NCBI RefSeq assembly: GCF_014199955.1
Contig: NZ_JACHOQ010000003.1
Coordinates: 248,001 to 312,000 of the forward strand
Length of the DNA: 64,000 nt
Reading direction: 5' to 3'
Source: Brevundimonas aurantiaca
Lineage (GTDB): Bacteria; Pseudomonadota; Alphaproteobacteria; Caulobacterales; Caulobacteraceae
Program-made: the position numbers and the translations under genes
The notes under the pieces: model-generated
Told to the model about the DNA's origin: nothing
The model's database searches: none
What the model saw: the letters and a program-made list of their open reading frames with translations, nothing else
In this document: one piece after another, positions 34,376 to 45,700 of the stretch
Layout of the letters: each line of letters opens with the position of its first letter
How positions within the stretch are numbered: the stretch's first letter is position 1

Positions 34376-35782
34376 TCAGGCCTGCATCATCCAGCCTTCG
34401 ACGTCCATGGCCGCCTGACGGACGGCTTCCGAACGGGTGGGGTGGGCGTGGCAGGTGCGGGCGATGTCTTCCGAGGCGCCGCCGAAGCTCATGGTGACGG
34501 CGGCTTCGTGGATCATTTCGCCGGCCTGGGGGCCCATGATGTGGACGCCCAGAACCTTGTCGGTGGCGGCGTCGGCCAGAACCTTAACGAAGCCGTCGGT
34601 CTCGTGGTTGATCTTGGCGCGGCTGTTGGCGGTGAAGGGGAATTTGCCCTTCTTGTAGGCGACGCCTGCGGCCTTCAGCTGATCCTCGGTCTGACCGACC
34701 CAGGCGACTTCGGGGAAGGTGTAGACCACGCTGGGCACCAGAGCGTAATCGACGTGGCCGTATTTGCCGGCGATGGTGTCGATCACGGCGACCGCGTCTT
34801 CCTCGGCCTTGTGCGCCAGCATCGGGCCATGGGTCACGTCGCCGATCACCCAGACGCCATCCGCCACCTTGAAGTGGTCATGGTCGATGAAGCCGCGCTT
34901 GTCCGGCGTGACGCCGATGGTCTCCAGACCCAGGCCGTCCGTATAGGGCCGGCGGCCGATGGCGACCAGGACGACGTCGGCCTTCAGGGTTTCGGCGGCG
35001 CCGCCGGCCGAGGGCTCGACCGTCAGCTCGACCCCGTCCTTGCCCGACTTGGCGGCCGTGACCTTGGCGCCCAGTTTGAACGTCATCCCCTGTTTGGTCA
35101 GGGTGCGCTGGAAGGCGGTGGCGACCTCGGTGTCCATGCCGGGGGTGATGCGGTCCAGGAACTCGACCACCGTCACCTCGGCGCCCAGGCGACGCCAGAC
35201 CGAACCCAGCTCCAGGCCGATGATGCCGGCGCCGACCACGATCAGCTTCTTGGGCACGGCCGGCAGGGACAGGGCGCCGGTGGAATCGATCACCTTGCCC
35301 GCTTCAAAGGCGACGCCGGGCAGGGGGGTGGGCTCCGAGCCGGTGGCGATGACGATGTTCTTGGCCTCGAGCGTCTGGACCGAACCGTCGGCGGCGGTCA
35401 CCTCGACCTTGCCCTTTCCGACGATCTTGCCCTTGCCCTTGATCCAGTCGGCCTTGTTCTTCTTGAACAGGAACTCGATCCCCTTGGTCAGGGCGGTGAC
35501 GCTGTCGTCCTTGGACTTGTGCATCTGGCTCAGGTTCAGCTTGGGCTGGACCTCGATGCCGATCTTGGCGAACTCGCTGTTGGCGGCGTCGAACATTTCC
35601 GAGGCGTGGAGCAGGGCCTTGGACGGCATGCAGCCGACGTTCAGGCAGGTGCCCCCCAGGGTGGCGCGCATCTCGACGCAGGCGACCTTCAGGCCCAGCT
35701 GGCCGGCGCGGATGGCGGCGTTATAGCCGCCGGGCCCCCCGCCGATGATGACGACGTCGTAGGGAGCGGGGGCTTCGGCCAT
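34376..35782 (-). CDS. lpd: Dihydrolipoyl dehydrogenase (E3)
   Basis: Reoxidises dihydrolipoamide with NAD+ in the pyruvate, 2-oxoglutarate or branched-chain dehydrogenase complexes. The 468 residues show FAD-binding GGGPGGYNAA, the redox disulphide C46-C51 (GGTCLNVGCMPSK), NAD-binding VVGAGIIGLELG, the second FAD motif VWVIGDVTHG and the catalytic His-Glu pair in HAHPTRSEA. There is no N-terminal lipoyl domain. E1/E2 genes would be expected upstream on this strand but the neighbour is a kinase-like gene. In related alphas this form usually follows the odhAB genes. Confidence 0.96.
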   Translation of the reverse strand: MAEAPAPYDVVIIGGGPGGYNAAIRAGQLGLKVACVEMRATLGGTCLNVGCMPSKALLHASEMFDAANSEFAKIGIEVQPKLNLSQMHKSKDDSVTALTKGIEFLFKKNKADWIKGKGKIVGKGKVEVTAADGSVQTLEAKNIVIATGSEPTPLPGVAFEAGKVIDSTGALSLPAVPKKLIVVGAGIIGLELGSVWRRLGAEVTVVEFLDRITPGMDTEVATAFQRTLTKQGMTFKLGAKVTAAKSGKDGVELTVEPSAGGAAETLKADVVLVAIGRRPYTDGLGLETIGVTPDKRGFIDHDHFKVADGVWVIGDVTHGPMLAHKAEEDAVAVIDTIAGKYGHVDYALVPSVVYTFPEVAWVGQTEDQLKAAGVAYKKGKFPFTANSRAKINHETDGFVKVLADAATDKVLGVHIMGPQAGEMIHEAAVTMSFGGASEDIARTCHAHPTRSEAVRQAAMDVEGWMMQA

Positions 35783-35894: not shown

Positions 35895-37775
35895 TCAGAC
35901 GACCGGCTCGGCCCTGGTCTGCTCCTGCGGCGACGGCTCGGGCTGGGCGCCGGCGGCGCCTTCAGGCGTCAAATCCAGCGGCAGGGTGATGGCCACCTCA
36001 GCCCCCTCGCCCGGGGCGCTCTCCACGGTCAGGGCGCCGGACGCCTGTCGGGCGAAGGCGAAGGCCTGAGACAGACCCAGCCCCGCCGCGTCGCTTCGGG
36101 TGGTGAAAAAGGGTTCGGGCGCGCGACGCAGAGTGTCCGAATCCATGCCGGGGCCGGAGTCGCGCACGCTGAGCCGCAGGTCGCCGGCCGAGGCGATCGC
36201 CAGACGAACGGCGACCGATCCGGATCCGTTAGAGGCCTCGACCGCATTGCGGGTCAAGGCGATGACCGCCGCCTCGAATGCGACGGGATCGACCCGCGCC
36301 GGCGCGGGCTGGTTCGGGGTCTCGATCATCAGATCGACGCCCGGTCCGGCGATCTGGCGCAACCGGCCCTCCAGCCCCGCCAACAGTACGCCCAGGTCCA
36401 GGCGCCGCAGCAGGGTGCGGTCCTCGTCCTGAGAAAAGGCGCTCAGCCGGCGGGTCATCTGTTCGCCGCGTCGCCCCGCCGTCAGGGCCGCCTGACCCAG
36501 CCGGCGGACCCGGTCAGGATCGTCGGAGTGGCGCAACAGCATGTCCAGGGCGGAGGTCATGACGTTCAGCAGGGCGGCGAAATCCTGCGTCACCCCGCCC
36601 GCCAAACGGCCGACATTGGCCATGCGGCGTTCGGCCTCCAAGGCCTCACGCAGATCGCGCTCCGCCTTTTCCGCCTGGGCCAGCGCCTTTTCATGGGCGA
36701 GCGCCTGGGCCTCCTGACGGCGGGAGAATTCGGCCTGGGCGGCGGTAAGGGCGGCGGCGACCGCGTCGGAGGCGGCCGCATCGTCGTCCGCCTCGGCGAG
36801 GGCGGGCGCAGCCGGGGCCGTATCCTGGGCCTCGGATACGGACGAGCCGGCCAGAAGGATCGCATCCGCAGCGTCCGCCTCGTCGGTCAGAGGCAGGAGG
36901 GTCCAGCGGATCGCCGCGCCCTCGGCGTCGATCGTCTCTATCGGAGGGATATCCTCGCTCGGAGCGGTCAGAACGGCTCTAAGGGTCTGGCGAGCCTCGA
37001 CCCGGCGGTCGGGCGGCAGGAACAGGTCGGCGAAATCGGCCCCCGCCACGCCCTCGCTGCGGCCCAGCATGACCAGGGCGGCGCGGTTGGCCTGGCGGAT
37101 CGCGCCGTCGGGCCCGACCACCACCAGGGCGCTGGAGGCGGCGTCGAAGACGCGGTCGGACAGGCTCGGTCCCGCCGGGCGCGCCGAGGGCGCGGCCGGG
37201 GGCGCCGGCGGAGGCGTCATCGGTTCGATCGCCGGGGTGGTCAGGACGTCCGTCTCGACGATGGCGGCGATCGAGCCCGTGATCTGGCCGTGCTCGTTCT
37301 CGATCGGCATGGCCGTCACCGAAACCAGCATCTTCTTGCGGGTCGCCGCATTGACCATCAGGTGCTGAAAGCCGCGCACCGTCTGGCCCCGCAGAGCCCG
37401 TGCGCTGGGAAGGAGGTCGGGCGGCACGGTCTTGCCGTCCGGAAAGGTGATGCCCCAGGTGGCGGAGTGGAACCGCAGCCCCAGGAGTTCGGCGTCGCGA
37501 CGGCCCAGCAACTGATGCGCGGCGCGGTTGGCGAAGACGAACTTGCCCGTCTGGTCCGTCTCCACCATGGCGACGGGCACGGCGTTCAGGGTTTCGAACA
37601 GGCGGCGATCCGAGGACTCCGCCACCTTCTGAACGATGTCCAGCTGATCCGTCGCGCTGGCGTGGCGCACCCGGTTGGCGATGGCGAACCAGATGGCGAT
37701 GACCGCCGCGACATTGCCGAAGCCCGCCAGGAGTCCAAGCACCAGGGTCCAGTTGACCTCGCCTTCGAGGAACAT
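35895..37775 (-). CDS. PAS-domain histidine-kinase-like protein lacking the phospho-acceptor His
   Basis: Protein of 626 residues: one N-terminal membrane helix (about 9-32), a PAS domain (about 56-175), a Pro-rich linker, a second PAS-like domain (about 207-310), an Ala/Glu-rich coiled coil (338-385), a HisKA-like region and a HATPase domain. The H-box reads RLAGGVTQDFAALLN, with Gln397 (CAG, 36585-36587) where GGVAHDFNN-type kinases have His. The N box (RNAVEASN), G1 (DSGPGMD) and G2 (GLGLSQAF) look intact. It may be a pseudokinase or signal integrator. The start at 37775 was chosen over a longer frame to 37871. Confidence 0.85.
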   Translation of the reverse strand: MFLEGEVNWTLVLGLLAGFGNVAAVIAIWFAIANRVRHASATDQLDIVQKVAESSDRRLFETLNAVPVAMVETDQTGKFVFANRAAHQLLGRRDAELLGLRFHSATWGITFPDGKTVPPDLLPSARALRGQTVRGFQHLMVNAATRKKMLVSVTAMPIENEHGQITGSIAAIVETDVLTTPAIEPMTPPPAPPAAPSARPAGPSLSDRVFDAASSALVVVGPDGAIRQANRAALVMLGRSEGVAGADFADLFLPPDRRVEARQTLRAVLTAPSEDIPPIETIDAEGAAIRWTLLPLTDEADAADAILLAGSSVSEAQDTAPAAPALAEADDDAAASDAVAAALTAAQAEFSRRQEAQALAHEKALAQAEKAERDLREALEAERRMANVGRLAGGVTQDFAALLNVMTSALDMLLRHSDDPDRVRRLGQAALTAGRRGEQMTRRLSAFSQDEDRTLLRRLDLGVLLAGLEGRLRQIAGPGVDLMIETPNQPAPARVDPVAFEAAVIALTRNAVEASNGSGSVAVRLAIASAGDLRLSVRDSGPGMDSDTLRRAPEPFFTTRSDAAGLGLSQAFAFARQASGALTVESAPGEGAEVAITLPLDLTPEGAAGAQPEPSPQEQTRAEPVV

Positions 37776-42970: not shown

Positions 42971-43405
42971 TCAAAGCGTTCCGAGCGCGACTGCGACCAT
43001 CTCGACGGCGGATGGGGGGCGGGGGTCCAGCGCCAGGAGCGGCAGATCCACCCCCGCGAACCGGCGGGTTTGCGGTTCGGGCAGGCGTTCGACCGCCTCG
43101 GGCGCGCAGGCGACGGCCATGACGACACGGGCGACCCAACGTGTTCTGGCGGACACGATTCCGACCCCGCGCGCCTCGATCCGGCCGGCGATCGACTGGG
43201 GCGCCGTAGCGTAAAGCGAGCCGCCTGAGGCCCAGACACGGGTGTAGTCGTCGCTGACCAGTCGCCAACCGCGTCCGATCAGCCGCAGCGCCAGATCGCT
43301 TTTTCCGGCGCCTGAGGGCCCCAGGATCATCACCGCCCGCCACGCCGCCTCGTCCGGTCCGCGCCGGGCCACCGTGGTTGCGTGGATAGGGGCGGCCTCG
43401 GTCAC
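42971..43405 (-). CDS. hprK: HPr kinase/phosphorylase, short alphaproteobacterial form
   Basis: Phosphorylates HPr on Ser and removes that phosphate. At 144 residues it has only the C-terminal kinase domain, as is normal in alphaproteobacteria, against about 310 in Firmicutes. The P-loop GPSGAGKS is at 29-36, followed by LVSDDYTRV with acidic catalytic residues. The C-terminal part with PEPQTRRFAGVDLPLLALDPR is divergent from Gram-positive proteins. It overlaps the chvG stop by four bases, so translation is coupled to the sensor kinase. Confidence 0.94.
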   Translation of the reverse strand: MTEAAPIHATTVARRGPDEAAWRAVMILGPSGAGKSDLALRLIGRGWRLVSDDYTRVWASGGSLYATAPQSIAGRIEARGVGIVSARTRWVARVVMAVACAPEAVERLPEPQTRRFAGVDLPLLALDPRPPSAVEMVAVALGTL

Positions 43406-45027
43406 GGACGGCGGCCGTTCGCCGGCAGGGCCACCACGAAGCGGGCGCCCAGGATGCGGTCGCCCTCCGTCATATTCTCCGCCCAGGCGCGTCCCCCGTG
43501 CGCCTCGACGATCTGGCGGACGATGGACAGGCCCAGACCTGAGTTCGATCCGAAGGCCGCGCCCCTGGGTCGCGAGGTGTAGAAGCGTTCGAATACCGTC
43601 TCGAGATTTTCGGGCGGCACCCCCGGCCCCTGATCCTCAATGCGGATCCGGATCGGCAGCTCGCCCTCCGTCTCTTCCAGGGTCACGCGCACCGATCCGT
43701 CGGCCGGACTGAAGGAGCGGGCGTTGTCGATCAGATTGCGGAAGACCTGGCCCAGAGGCCCGTCGCGCCCCACCACCCGCAGCGCCTGAGCCGGCGGATC
43801 ATACAGGACCGGAATGTCGCCGGGCTTGGCCGTCGTCTCATAGACGTTGACGATGTCGCTCAGCAGGGTGTTCAGGGCGATGGGGCGGGGCCGATCGCGC
43901 GACAGTTCCGCATCCAGCCGCGAGGCGTTGGATATGTCGGTGATCAGCCGATCCAGGCGCCGCACGTCCTGCTGCAGCAGGGCGGTCAGTTTTTCGCGCT
44001 GAGCGTCCGTCTTCACCAGGGGCAGGGTCTCCAGGGCCGAGCGGATCGAGGTCAGGGGGTTCTTGATCTCGTGCGACACGTCAGCGGCGAACCGTTCGAT
44101 CGCGTCCATCCGCGTGGACAGGGTGTCGGTCATCGATTCCAGCGACCGGGCCAGGTCGCCGATCTCATCCTTGCGGTCTTCCAGATCGGGAAGAGAGATG
44201 GATCGGGCCCGTTGCAGCTTGACCCCGTCCGCTGCCGCCGAAAGCCGCATGATCGGTCGCGCCACGAACAGATGCAGCAGCAGGGAGGCCAGGAGATTCA
44301 CCCCCAGGGCCACCAGGGCGAAGGGCACCAGGGCGCGCCTCTGGGCGCCGAGGATCTCATCGACATTGCCGGCCTCAAGCGTCAGCACCCCCAAGACCTG
44401 ACGCACATGTCGGATTGGAATGGAGACGGAGACGACGCGATCGCCCGACTCATTGCGCCGGAGCGTGGTCTGGGGCGCGCCGGCCAGTGCCAGCTCCACC
44501 TCGGCCGTCACCTCGCGCTCCGCCGCGTCCTTCTGTTCGGCCCGACGCGCGTTGACGCGCGCCAGATCGCCGGGCGCTTTGGAGCCCGCCGGGCGGGCGG
44601 GCGGCAAGGCCTGGCCGGGGATGTTTTCGGTGACCTGATAGCTGTCGATGACCTGCAGGCCGTTGATGTCGTACAGGCGCACCCGCTGCCCCTCGGGCAC
44701 GAAGTTGTCGCGCAGCCAGCGGGCCGCCTCGCCGACGTCCAGCTCCGGGGTGGGCTCGCCTCGCGTGATGCTGAGCTGCCCCAGCACATTGCCGAGCAGT
44801 TCGGCCTGGACCTTCAGCGATTCCTGGCGCGCCTGAATCAACCCCTTGCTCCATTCATTGAGCAGGAGGGCGCCGCCGAACAGGATCAGCAGGCTCAGCA
44901 GGTTGAGGGCGAGGATGAAGCCGCCGAGCCGCGAGCCGCCGAAGCGGAACAGCGGCCGTCGATGAGGCTCTTCCTCGGTCTCGCGGCCGGGAAGATCAGC
45001 TTTCGCGGTATCGGTAGCCGACGCCAT
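43402..45027 (-). CDS. chvG: Sensor histidine kinase ChvG
   Basis: Inner-membrane kinase of 541 residues, partner of ChvI. TM1 (about 35-57), a periplasmic sensor (about 58-235), TM2 (about 236-256), HAMP, then the phospho-acceptor H319 in [14 protein letters not shown] box ([12 protein letters not shown]), G1 (EDQGPGVP) and G2 ([11 protein letters not shown]). ChvG/ExoS senses acid and cell-envelope stress and governs envelope, motility and metabolic genes. The start overlaps the chvI 3' end by 32 bases, so a later start is possible. hprK overlaps its stop. Confidence 0.94.
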
Positions 45028-45700
45028 ACAGGGTCTCGATCGCGTCGAACTCGGGGTCCACGGCGCGGAACTTCTTGCGCATCCGCTTCACGTGGCTGTC
45101 GATGGTGCGGTCATCGACATAGACTTGGTCGTCATAGGCCGCGTCCATCAGATTGTCGCGGCTCTTCACGAAGCCGGGGCGCTGGGCCAGGGCCTGAAGC
45201 AGCAGAAATTCCGTGACGGTCAGCTTCACCGGCTTGCCGTCCCAGGTCGATTCATGGCGCGCCGGGTCCATGCTGAGCTTGCCGCGCTTTATCGCCTTGC
45301 CGGACACCTCGGCCGAGGGCTCGGGCTCGACGCCGTCGGCGCCGGTGCGGCGCAGCAGGGCCTTGACCCGCTCGATCAGCAGCCTCTGGCTGAACGGCTT
45401 GTGGATATAGTCGTCGGCGCCGAGGTTGAAGCCTAGGATCTCGTCGATCTCTTCATCCTTGGAGGTCAGCATGATGACCGGGAGCTGCGAGGTCTGGCGC
45501 AGCCGGCGCAACACCTCCATCCCGTCCATGCGCGGCATCTTCACGTCAAGAATGGCCAGATCGGGCGGCGTGCTCTCCAAGGCCGCCAGACCCGATGCAC
45601 CGTCGTGATAGGCGGTGATCTTATGGCCATGGCTTTCCAGCGCCAGCGAGACGGACGTCACGATGTTCTCGTCGTCATCGACCAGGGTGATGTTGGCCAA
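44996..45700 (-). CDS. chvI: Response regulator ChvI
   Basis: OmpR-type regulator of 234 residues. The receiver domain has the acidic pocket DDD (8-10), phospho-acceptor D52 in [10 protein letters not shown], the TSK motif and the KPF Lys near residue 102. The winged-helix DNA-binding domain follows from about 130, with [32 protein letters not shown] and the C-terminal YGVGYRY hairpin. First gene of the regulatory cluster. A 7-bp inverted repeat lies about 50 bases upstream (GTAACCG / CGGTTAC, 45752-45773). Confidence 0.95.

Follow-up and report, generated by a model that had tools for sequence, protein, structure and literature searches.

The locus and its product

The stretch of DNA analysed here, referred to as the window, comprises 64,000 nucleotides from Brevundimonas aurantiaca (NCBI RefSeq assembly GCF_014199955.1, contig NZ_JACHOQ010000003.1, positions 248,001 to 312,000 of the forward strand), a genome that lies within Brevundimonas near B. 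mediterranea and B. intermedia. Its minus strand carries the gene for P0001, a protein built like a histidine kinase with a glutamine at the phospho-acceptor position. The phospho-acceptor histidine of this protein family has been replaced several times independently. The features of the gene, all on the minus strand, are as follows.

35895-37775, minus: P0001, PAS-PAS-DHp-CA pseudo-histidine kinase of 626 residues (translation, Pfam, orthologues)
37677-37748, minus: N-terminal hydrophobic helix, residues ~10-33, single predicted membrane anchor (sequence and predicted helix 9-65; putative transmembrane segment)
37242-37619, minus: PAS1, residues 53-178 (Pfam PAS_4, conservation)
36840-37178, minus: PAS2, residues ~200-312, less conserved (Pfam, AlphaFold, conservation)
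36627-36767, minus: variable helical linker, residues 337-383 (predicted helix 337-416)
36420-36626, minus: DHp helical hairpin, residues 384-452 (structure match, AlphaFold, conservation)
36585-36587, minus: Gln397 (CAG), phospho-acceptor position (translation, orthologue alignment)
36573-36575, minus: Ala401, the +4 position, Thr or Asn in active HisKA phosphatases (Ala in 79 of 82 orthologues)
35976-36353, minus: CA or HATPase_c domain, residues 475-600 (PF02518, AlphaFold, fold match)
36246-36248, minus: N-box Asn510 (invariant, 82 of 82)
36147-36161, minus: G1 box, Asp539 to Gly543 (Asp and both Gly in 82 of 82)
36072-36089, minus: altered G2 box AAGLGL, residues 563-568, following a lid shorter by 2 residues (alignment)

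Pfam recognized two PAS domains and a HATPase_c domain (PF02518) that scored 59 bits against a cut-off of 26.4. The HisKA profile reached 11.7 bits, under its cut-off of 26.9. The H-box region of P0001 reads MANVGRLAGGVTQDFAALLNVM, and translation of the minus-strand codon at 36585-36587, CAG, gives Gln397. The first-pass annotation had placed a glutamine at the phospho-acceptor position, and it did so correctly: alignment with CckA (PDB 5idj) puts Gln397 in the column of the phospho-acceptor histidine of CckA and of HDFNN-type kinases. An AlphaFold model built with 35 family sequences has a long DHp hairpin and a CA fold for which the predicted local distance difference test score is mostly above 90. 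The nearest DHp-CA structure is that of CckA, and the CckA CA domain (5idm) matched with a TM-score of 0.77. Solved structures were also searched for a ligand of PAS1, giving weak matches of which the best was the PAS domain of NifL at E=0.06. A scan of the locus found no promoter or terminator.

Replacement of the phospho-acceptor across the genus

The acceptor column was surveyed in 131 genomes of the genus. The gene is absent from 48 of them; 83 carry an orthologue of P0001, and 82 orthologues were readable at column 397. Histidine occupies the column in 51, glutamine in 28, arginine in 2 and threonine in 1. The glutamine codon is CAG in all but one case, the exception being CAA. Histidine was found in B. 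mediterranea, B. intermedia, B. denitrificans, B. basaltis, B. lenta, B. alba, B. viscosa, B. halotolerans, B. abyssalis and Peiella sedimenti, and glutamine in B. poindexterae, B. bacteroides and B. fluminis, while B. aveniformis has threonine. Close relatives alternate. The window species has Gln and B. mediterranea His; B. halotolerans has His and B. poindexterae Gln, although the H-boxes of these two are otherwise nearly identical (GGLVHDL vs. GGLVQDL).

The possibility was considered that Gln397 is a sequencing error or a mutation of one strain. Both are ruled out because the orthologue from an independent metagenome-assembled genome (L031/L130), 99% identical to P0001, likewise has CAG, and because glutamine recurs in type strains. 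A fixed substitution is equally ruled out by the 51 orthologues with histidine. Thus, the suggestion that the glutamine might be fixed in relatives did not hold. The first-pass annotation had also proposed that histidine in orthologues would count against a pseudokinase, as the sign of a strain mutation or sequencing error; histidine was indeed found, but the explanation is repeated independent replacement.

The number of replacements was estimated from trees. With the H-box columns removed, the whole-protein tree requires a minimum of 9 switches between His and non-His states; well-supported branches force 6 of these. The minimum was 8 changes (5 forced) on a tree of the N-terminal half and 5 changes (4 forced) on a tree of the kinase half, and a one-way model in which histidine is never regained needs 11 losses. 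Since the counts for the two halves differ, some recombinational exchange is possible; however, recombination was rejected as the cause of the multiple changes, each half requiring several on its own. One glutamine sequence (L080) is possibly chimeric, but without it the clade of the window species is still a mixture of Gln (L001, L002) and His. This sequence comes from a metagenome-assembled genome (G089) with two alleles, L031 and L080, that are 99% and 71% identical to P0001. One of the alleles adjoins a copy of lpd, the downstream neighbor of the P0001 gene, that is 99.5% identical to the lpd of the window from residue 92 onward. The two-allele locus may be a chimeric assembly or a product of recombination.

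Two controls were available within the genome and the genus. The window genome has 40 HisKA matches, and 36 of the 37 readable H-boxes carry histidine, the exception being DivL, with tyrosine. The closest DHp in the genome by far, 56% identical over 66 residues, belongs to a hybrid kinase of 1027 residues with an HDFNN H-box (G000:C1:526506-529190). Thirty copies of this paralogue were fetched from the genus, and all 28 that were readable have both the acceptor histidine and the +4 asparagine. As the controls keep their histidine, the mixed column is specific to the P0001 family and stems neither from the genomes nor from the method.

Conserved and altered residues of the kinase domains

Residues of the ATP-binding site are retained regardless of the acceptor. 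Asp398 at the +1 position, Asn510 of the N box, Asp539, Gly541 and Gly543 of the G1 box, and Phe556, Phe557 and Thr559 of the F box are invariant in 82 of 82 orthologues. The acidic +1 residue expected of an active HisKA kinase is therefore present in P0001, but the acceptor histidine and the +4 Thr or Asn are absent. The ATPase boxes had been described as intact from the window sequence, and this was borne out for the N and G1 boxes, together with the F box. It does not extend to the G2 box: the first glycine of GxGLGL is Ala in P0001 and either Ala or Gln in all 82 orthologues, and the ATP lid is 2 residues shorter in the alignment than in the canonical relatives L095-L097.

The +4 Asn or Thr marks a phosphatase-competent HisKA protein, and changing this asparagine to alanine abolishes the phosphatase activity of CrdS, HK853 and EnvZ (PMC3510030). 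In the 82 orthologues the position is occupied by Ala in 79, Ser in 2 and Asn in 1, the only Asn being that of the basal Peiella sequence. Nearly all of the Brevundimonas family has thus lost a residue on which phosphatase activity depends, a loss that the first-pass annotation had not noted. An alternative acceptor histidine was sought. His87, His103 and His138 are conserved, but all three belong to PAS1; the DHp domain has no other conserved histidine.

Mean pairwise identity was 83% in PAS1, the most conserved domain, 79% in DHp and 33% in the linker. The ratio of nonsynonymous to synonymous substitution rates (dN/dS) in DHp was 0.02-0.20 when both proteins of a pair have Gln and 0-0.12 when both have His. 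Elsewhere it was mostly below 0.1 in PAS1 and 0.1-0.9 in the linker, with the CA domain intermediate at ~0.05-0.33. Strong purifying selection acts on the DHp domain whether or not the histidine is present, and the values in DHp and CA indicate that both domains are maintained in the two kinds of protein. PAS1 has long invariant stretches, for example LGLRFHSATWGIT, as well as the three histidines already mentioned, which are conserved across the family; this pattern in the sequence suggests a specific ligand or partner.

Distant relatives

The orthologue in Asticcacaulis is a protein of ~885-895 residues (two were read fully) with ~55% identity in PAS1, a DHp domain 50-59% identical to that of P0001, and Ala, Asn or Gln at the acceptor position. 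No CA domain was detected in the Asticcacaulis loci that were fetched (L098, L099, L200-L209), where the protein ends after DHp. At one of these loci (L098), the PAS protein ending in the orphan DHp module adjoins RimK-like and Smr genes. A further metagenome-assembled genome of the Caulobacteraceae (L094/L184) encodes a full-length relative with glutamine. In two Caulobacter-named strains and one metagenome-assembled genome (L095-L097), the same PAS N-terminus is joined to a canonical HDFNNLL hybrid kinase, the receiver domain of which was read directly in L096. The simplest history would be that a hybrid kinase lost its receiver domain and its phosphatase residue, its lid was altered, and the acceptor was then lost repeatedly, with the CA domain lost in one genus.

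Neighboring genes

The gene next to that of P0001 is listed below.

34376-35782, minus: lpd (dihydrolipoamide dehydrogenase), downstream neighbor of the P0001 gene, separated from it by a 112 bp gap

Linkage to lpd is found at most but not all orthologous loci, and the upstream genes vary. No response-regulator gene adjoining the orthologues and no fixed operon partner was found in the loci that were read. In several species (L019, L064, L069, L075), a gene for a small predicted membrane protein of ~150-169 residues (MKxLRFVLVLAVIAYAGWLAWPF...) separates the sensor gene from lpd; the window has no such gene there. Elsewhere in the window, a sensor kinase and response regulator pair (43402-45027, minus, and 44996-45700, minus) has the canonical H-box SHEIKNPL. 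We take this pair, recognized from its sequence only, to be similar to ChvG/ChvI.

Comparison with known systems

P0001 is neither DivL nor CckA, because both exist as separate genes. The P0001 H-box, VGRLAGGVTQDFAALL, is of the HDFNN, CckA-like type, unlike the SYELRTPL with tyrosine that is found in DivL. The DivL orthologue (G000:C3:243235-243432), with Tyr in SYELRTPLTT, lies ~4.8 kb to the left of the window and is a second, unrelated pseudo-histidine kinase. P0001 scored 83.9 bits on the CckA model NF046026 against a cut-off of 1000 and has no receiver domain, and the separate CckA-like gene (L210) has GGVAHDFNNLLTAI. CckA and the HDFNN hybrid kinases (5idj, paralogue L126) are the closest to P0001 in DHp-CA sequence and fold; compared with them, P0001 is without the histidine, the +4 Asn, the first G2 glycine, two lid residues and the receiver domain. 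NifL was likewise rejected as an identity, the TIGR02938 score being 45.1 bits against an equivalog cut-off of 242.45.

By analogy, DivL is the nearest functional precedent. The Caulobacter protein, in which Tyr550 takes the place of the acceptor, is without kinase or phosphatase activity, dimerizes and binds a regulator (PMC4211667). Like P0001, it is a PAS-DHp-CA pseudo-histidine kinase of the Caulobacteraceae with the acceptor replaced. However, DivL has tyrosine throughout the alphaproteobacteria (alanine in one), whereas the P0001 family alternates among His, Gln, Arg, Thr, Ala and Asn. NifL is a PAS/GHKL protein the output of which is a nucleotide-stabilized protein contact (PMC9866876). 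It shares with P0001 two PAS domains, an H domain and a nucleotide-binding GHKL domain, and the NifL-NifA structure 9qq6 is a fold match. However, P0001 has a membrane helix and no known NifA partner or nitrogen-fixation context, and orthology is unsupported by sequence.

Orthologues of the chloroplast sensor kinase CSK have His, Tyr, Gln or Glu at the acceptor position and an altered G2 box, with nucleotide binding kept (PMC5054060). The different replacement of the histidine by lineage and the altered G2 box are shared with the P0001 family. However, CSK belongs to the plastids of plants and algae, whereas the replacements described here occurred within one bacterial genus and the N, G1 and F motifs are invariant. 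RocA of group A Streptococcus is a membrane pseudokinase that acts on another kinase and for which the predicted histidine is dispensable (PMC7028121), although, unlike P0001, it is a multi-span membrane sensor from the Firmicutes with an unrelated input domain. In an evolved ChrS pseudokinase, the DHp domain was required but the histidine was not (PMC9491836).

Proposed function of the P0001 family

The family has the histidine kinase fold, has lost the acceptor across species and has stayed under purifying selection, a combination expected of a pseudo-histidine kinase. P0001 probably belongs to a family of orthologous pseudo-histidine kinases, anchored in the membrane and sensing through PAS domains, that is found in Brevundimonas, Peiella and Asticcacaulis, acts through protein contact and can dispense with the histidine. 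The frequent replacement of the acceptor while the ATP-binding motifs are nearly unchanged suggests signaling by protein contact rather than phosphate transfer, and repeated independent replacement supports an acceptor-independent role more strongly than simple fixation would. The pseudokinase proposed in the first-pass annotation is therefore probably right in substance, but the grounds for it are repeated replacement in a conserved protein and not fixation.

In such a mechanism, PAS1 would read a cytoplasmic signal, and the DHp helices would form a dimer that offers a surface for binding. The conformation would be set, in Brevundimonas, by the nucleotide that the CA domain binds. The output would be a direct contact with another two-component protein without phosphotransfer, as in DivL-CckA, RocA-CovS and NifL-NifA, and the orthologues that have the histidine would do the same job, no longer requiring it. 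A partnership of P0001 with another kinase is plausible, given these analogous systems and the similarity of its DHp domain. Tentatively, the acceptor may have become freely exchangeable (His, Gln, Arg, Thr, Ala, Asn) between close species while the ATP motifs stay invariant; P0001 would then be a nucleotide-gated DHp scaffold or a trans-acting half-kinase that controls another histidine kinase, the His and Gln alleles being equivalent.

Several observations weigh against the contact-signaling family. No partner was identified, and the co-occurrence of P0001 with its closest DHp paralogue is not strict: some of the genomes with a P0001 orthologue gave no match to the HDFNN hybrid kinase at the same threshold. 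Likelihood models that allow or forbid regain of histidine perform alike (lnL -27.4 and -27.3), favoring neither direction of change. Furthermore, no description of the family, biochemistry included, was found in the open-licence literature. The kind of system is known already; the family and its natural allele series appear to be undescribed in the literature searched.

It is also conceivable, though unlikely, that the family is split: the orthologues with histidine would be functional kinases that lack phosphatase activity and serve a regulator encoded elsewhere, and each glutamine lineage would have lost that function or turned it into another, such as a dominant-negative or scaffold role. 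Histidine is kept in a large clade of more than 30 species with both CAC and CAT in use, suggesting selection for it, and the invariance of Asp398 and of the ATP-site residues would suit a working kinase. However, DHp and CA are under purifying selection of similar strength whichever of the two residues a pair carries, sister species switch between Gln and His with their H-boxes otherwise little changed, and the changes in the phosphatase residue, G2 box and lid are common to nearly all orthologues.

Neutral decay, in which PAS1 alone matters and the acceptor column of a vestigial transmitter drifts, is improbable. PAS1 is the best conserved part, Asticcacaulis does without the CA domain and the gene is missing from 48 of the 131 genomes, but the ATP-site motifs do not vary, dN/dS in DHp is comparable to that of PAS1 and mostly below 0.1, and the substitutions at column 397 are mainly to Gln and not random. 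The least probable alternative is that the acceptor-less protomer heterodimerizes with a histidine-bearing kinase, the candidate being the HDFNN hybrid kinase, and that its intact CA domain phosphorylates the histidine of the partner; retention of the ATP site without the acceptor and the closeness of the two DHp domains speak for it, but the missing CA domain in Asticcacaulis, the altered G2 box and lid, and the genomes in which the candidate was undetected speak against it.

Pseudo-histidine kinases are known from few cases, mostly with a single old and fixed loss of the acceptor. In the P0001 family the acceptor was lost several times, the species involved are close relatives that can be cultured, and one locus carries a His orthologue in some of them and a Gln orthologue in others, which together constitute a natural experiment. 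Allele swaps between species would directly test the need for phosphorylation and the role of a conserved ATP site without an acceptor. Moreover, sister species can differ in the H-box of a kinase-like gene, and kinase function should therefore not be carried over from one to the other by annotation.
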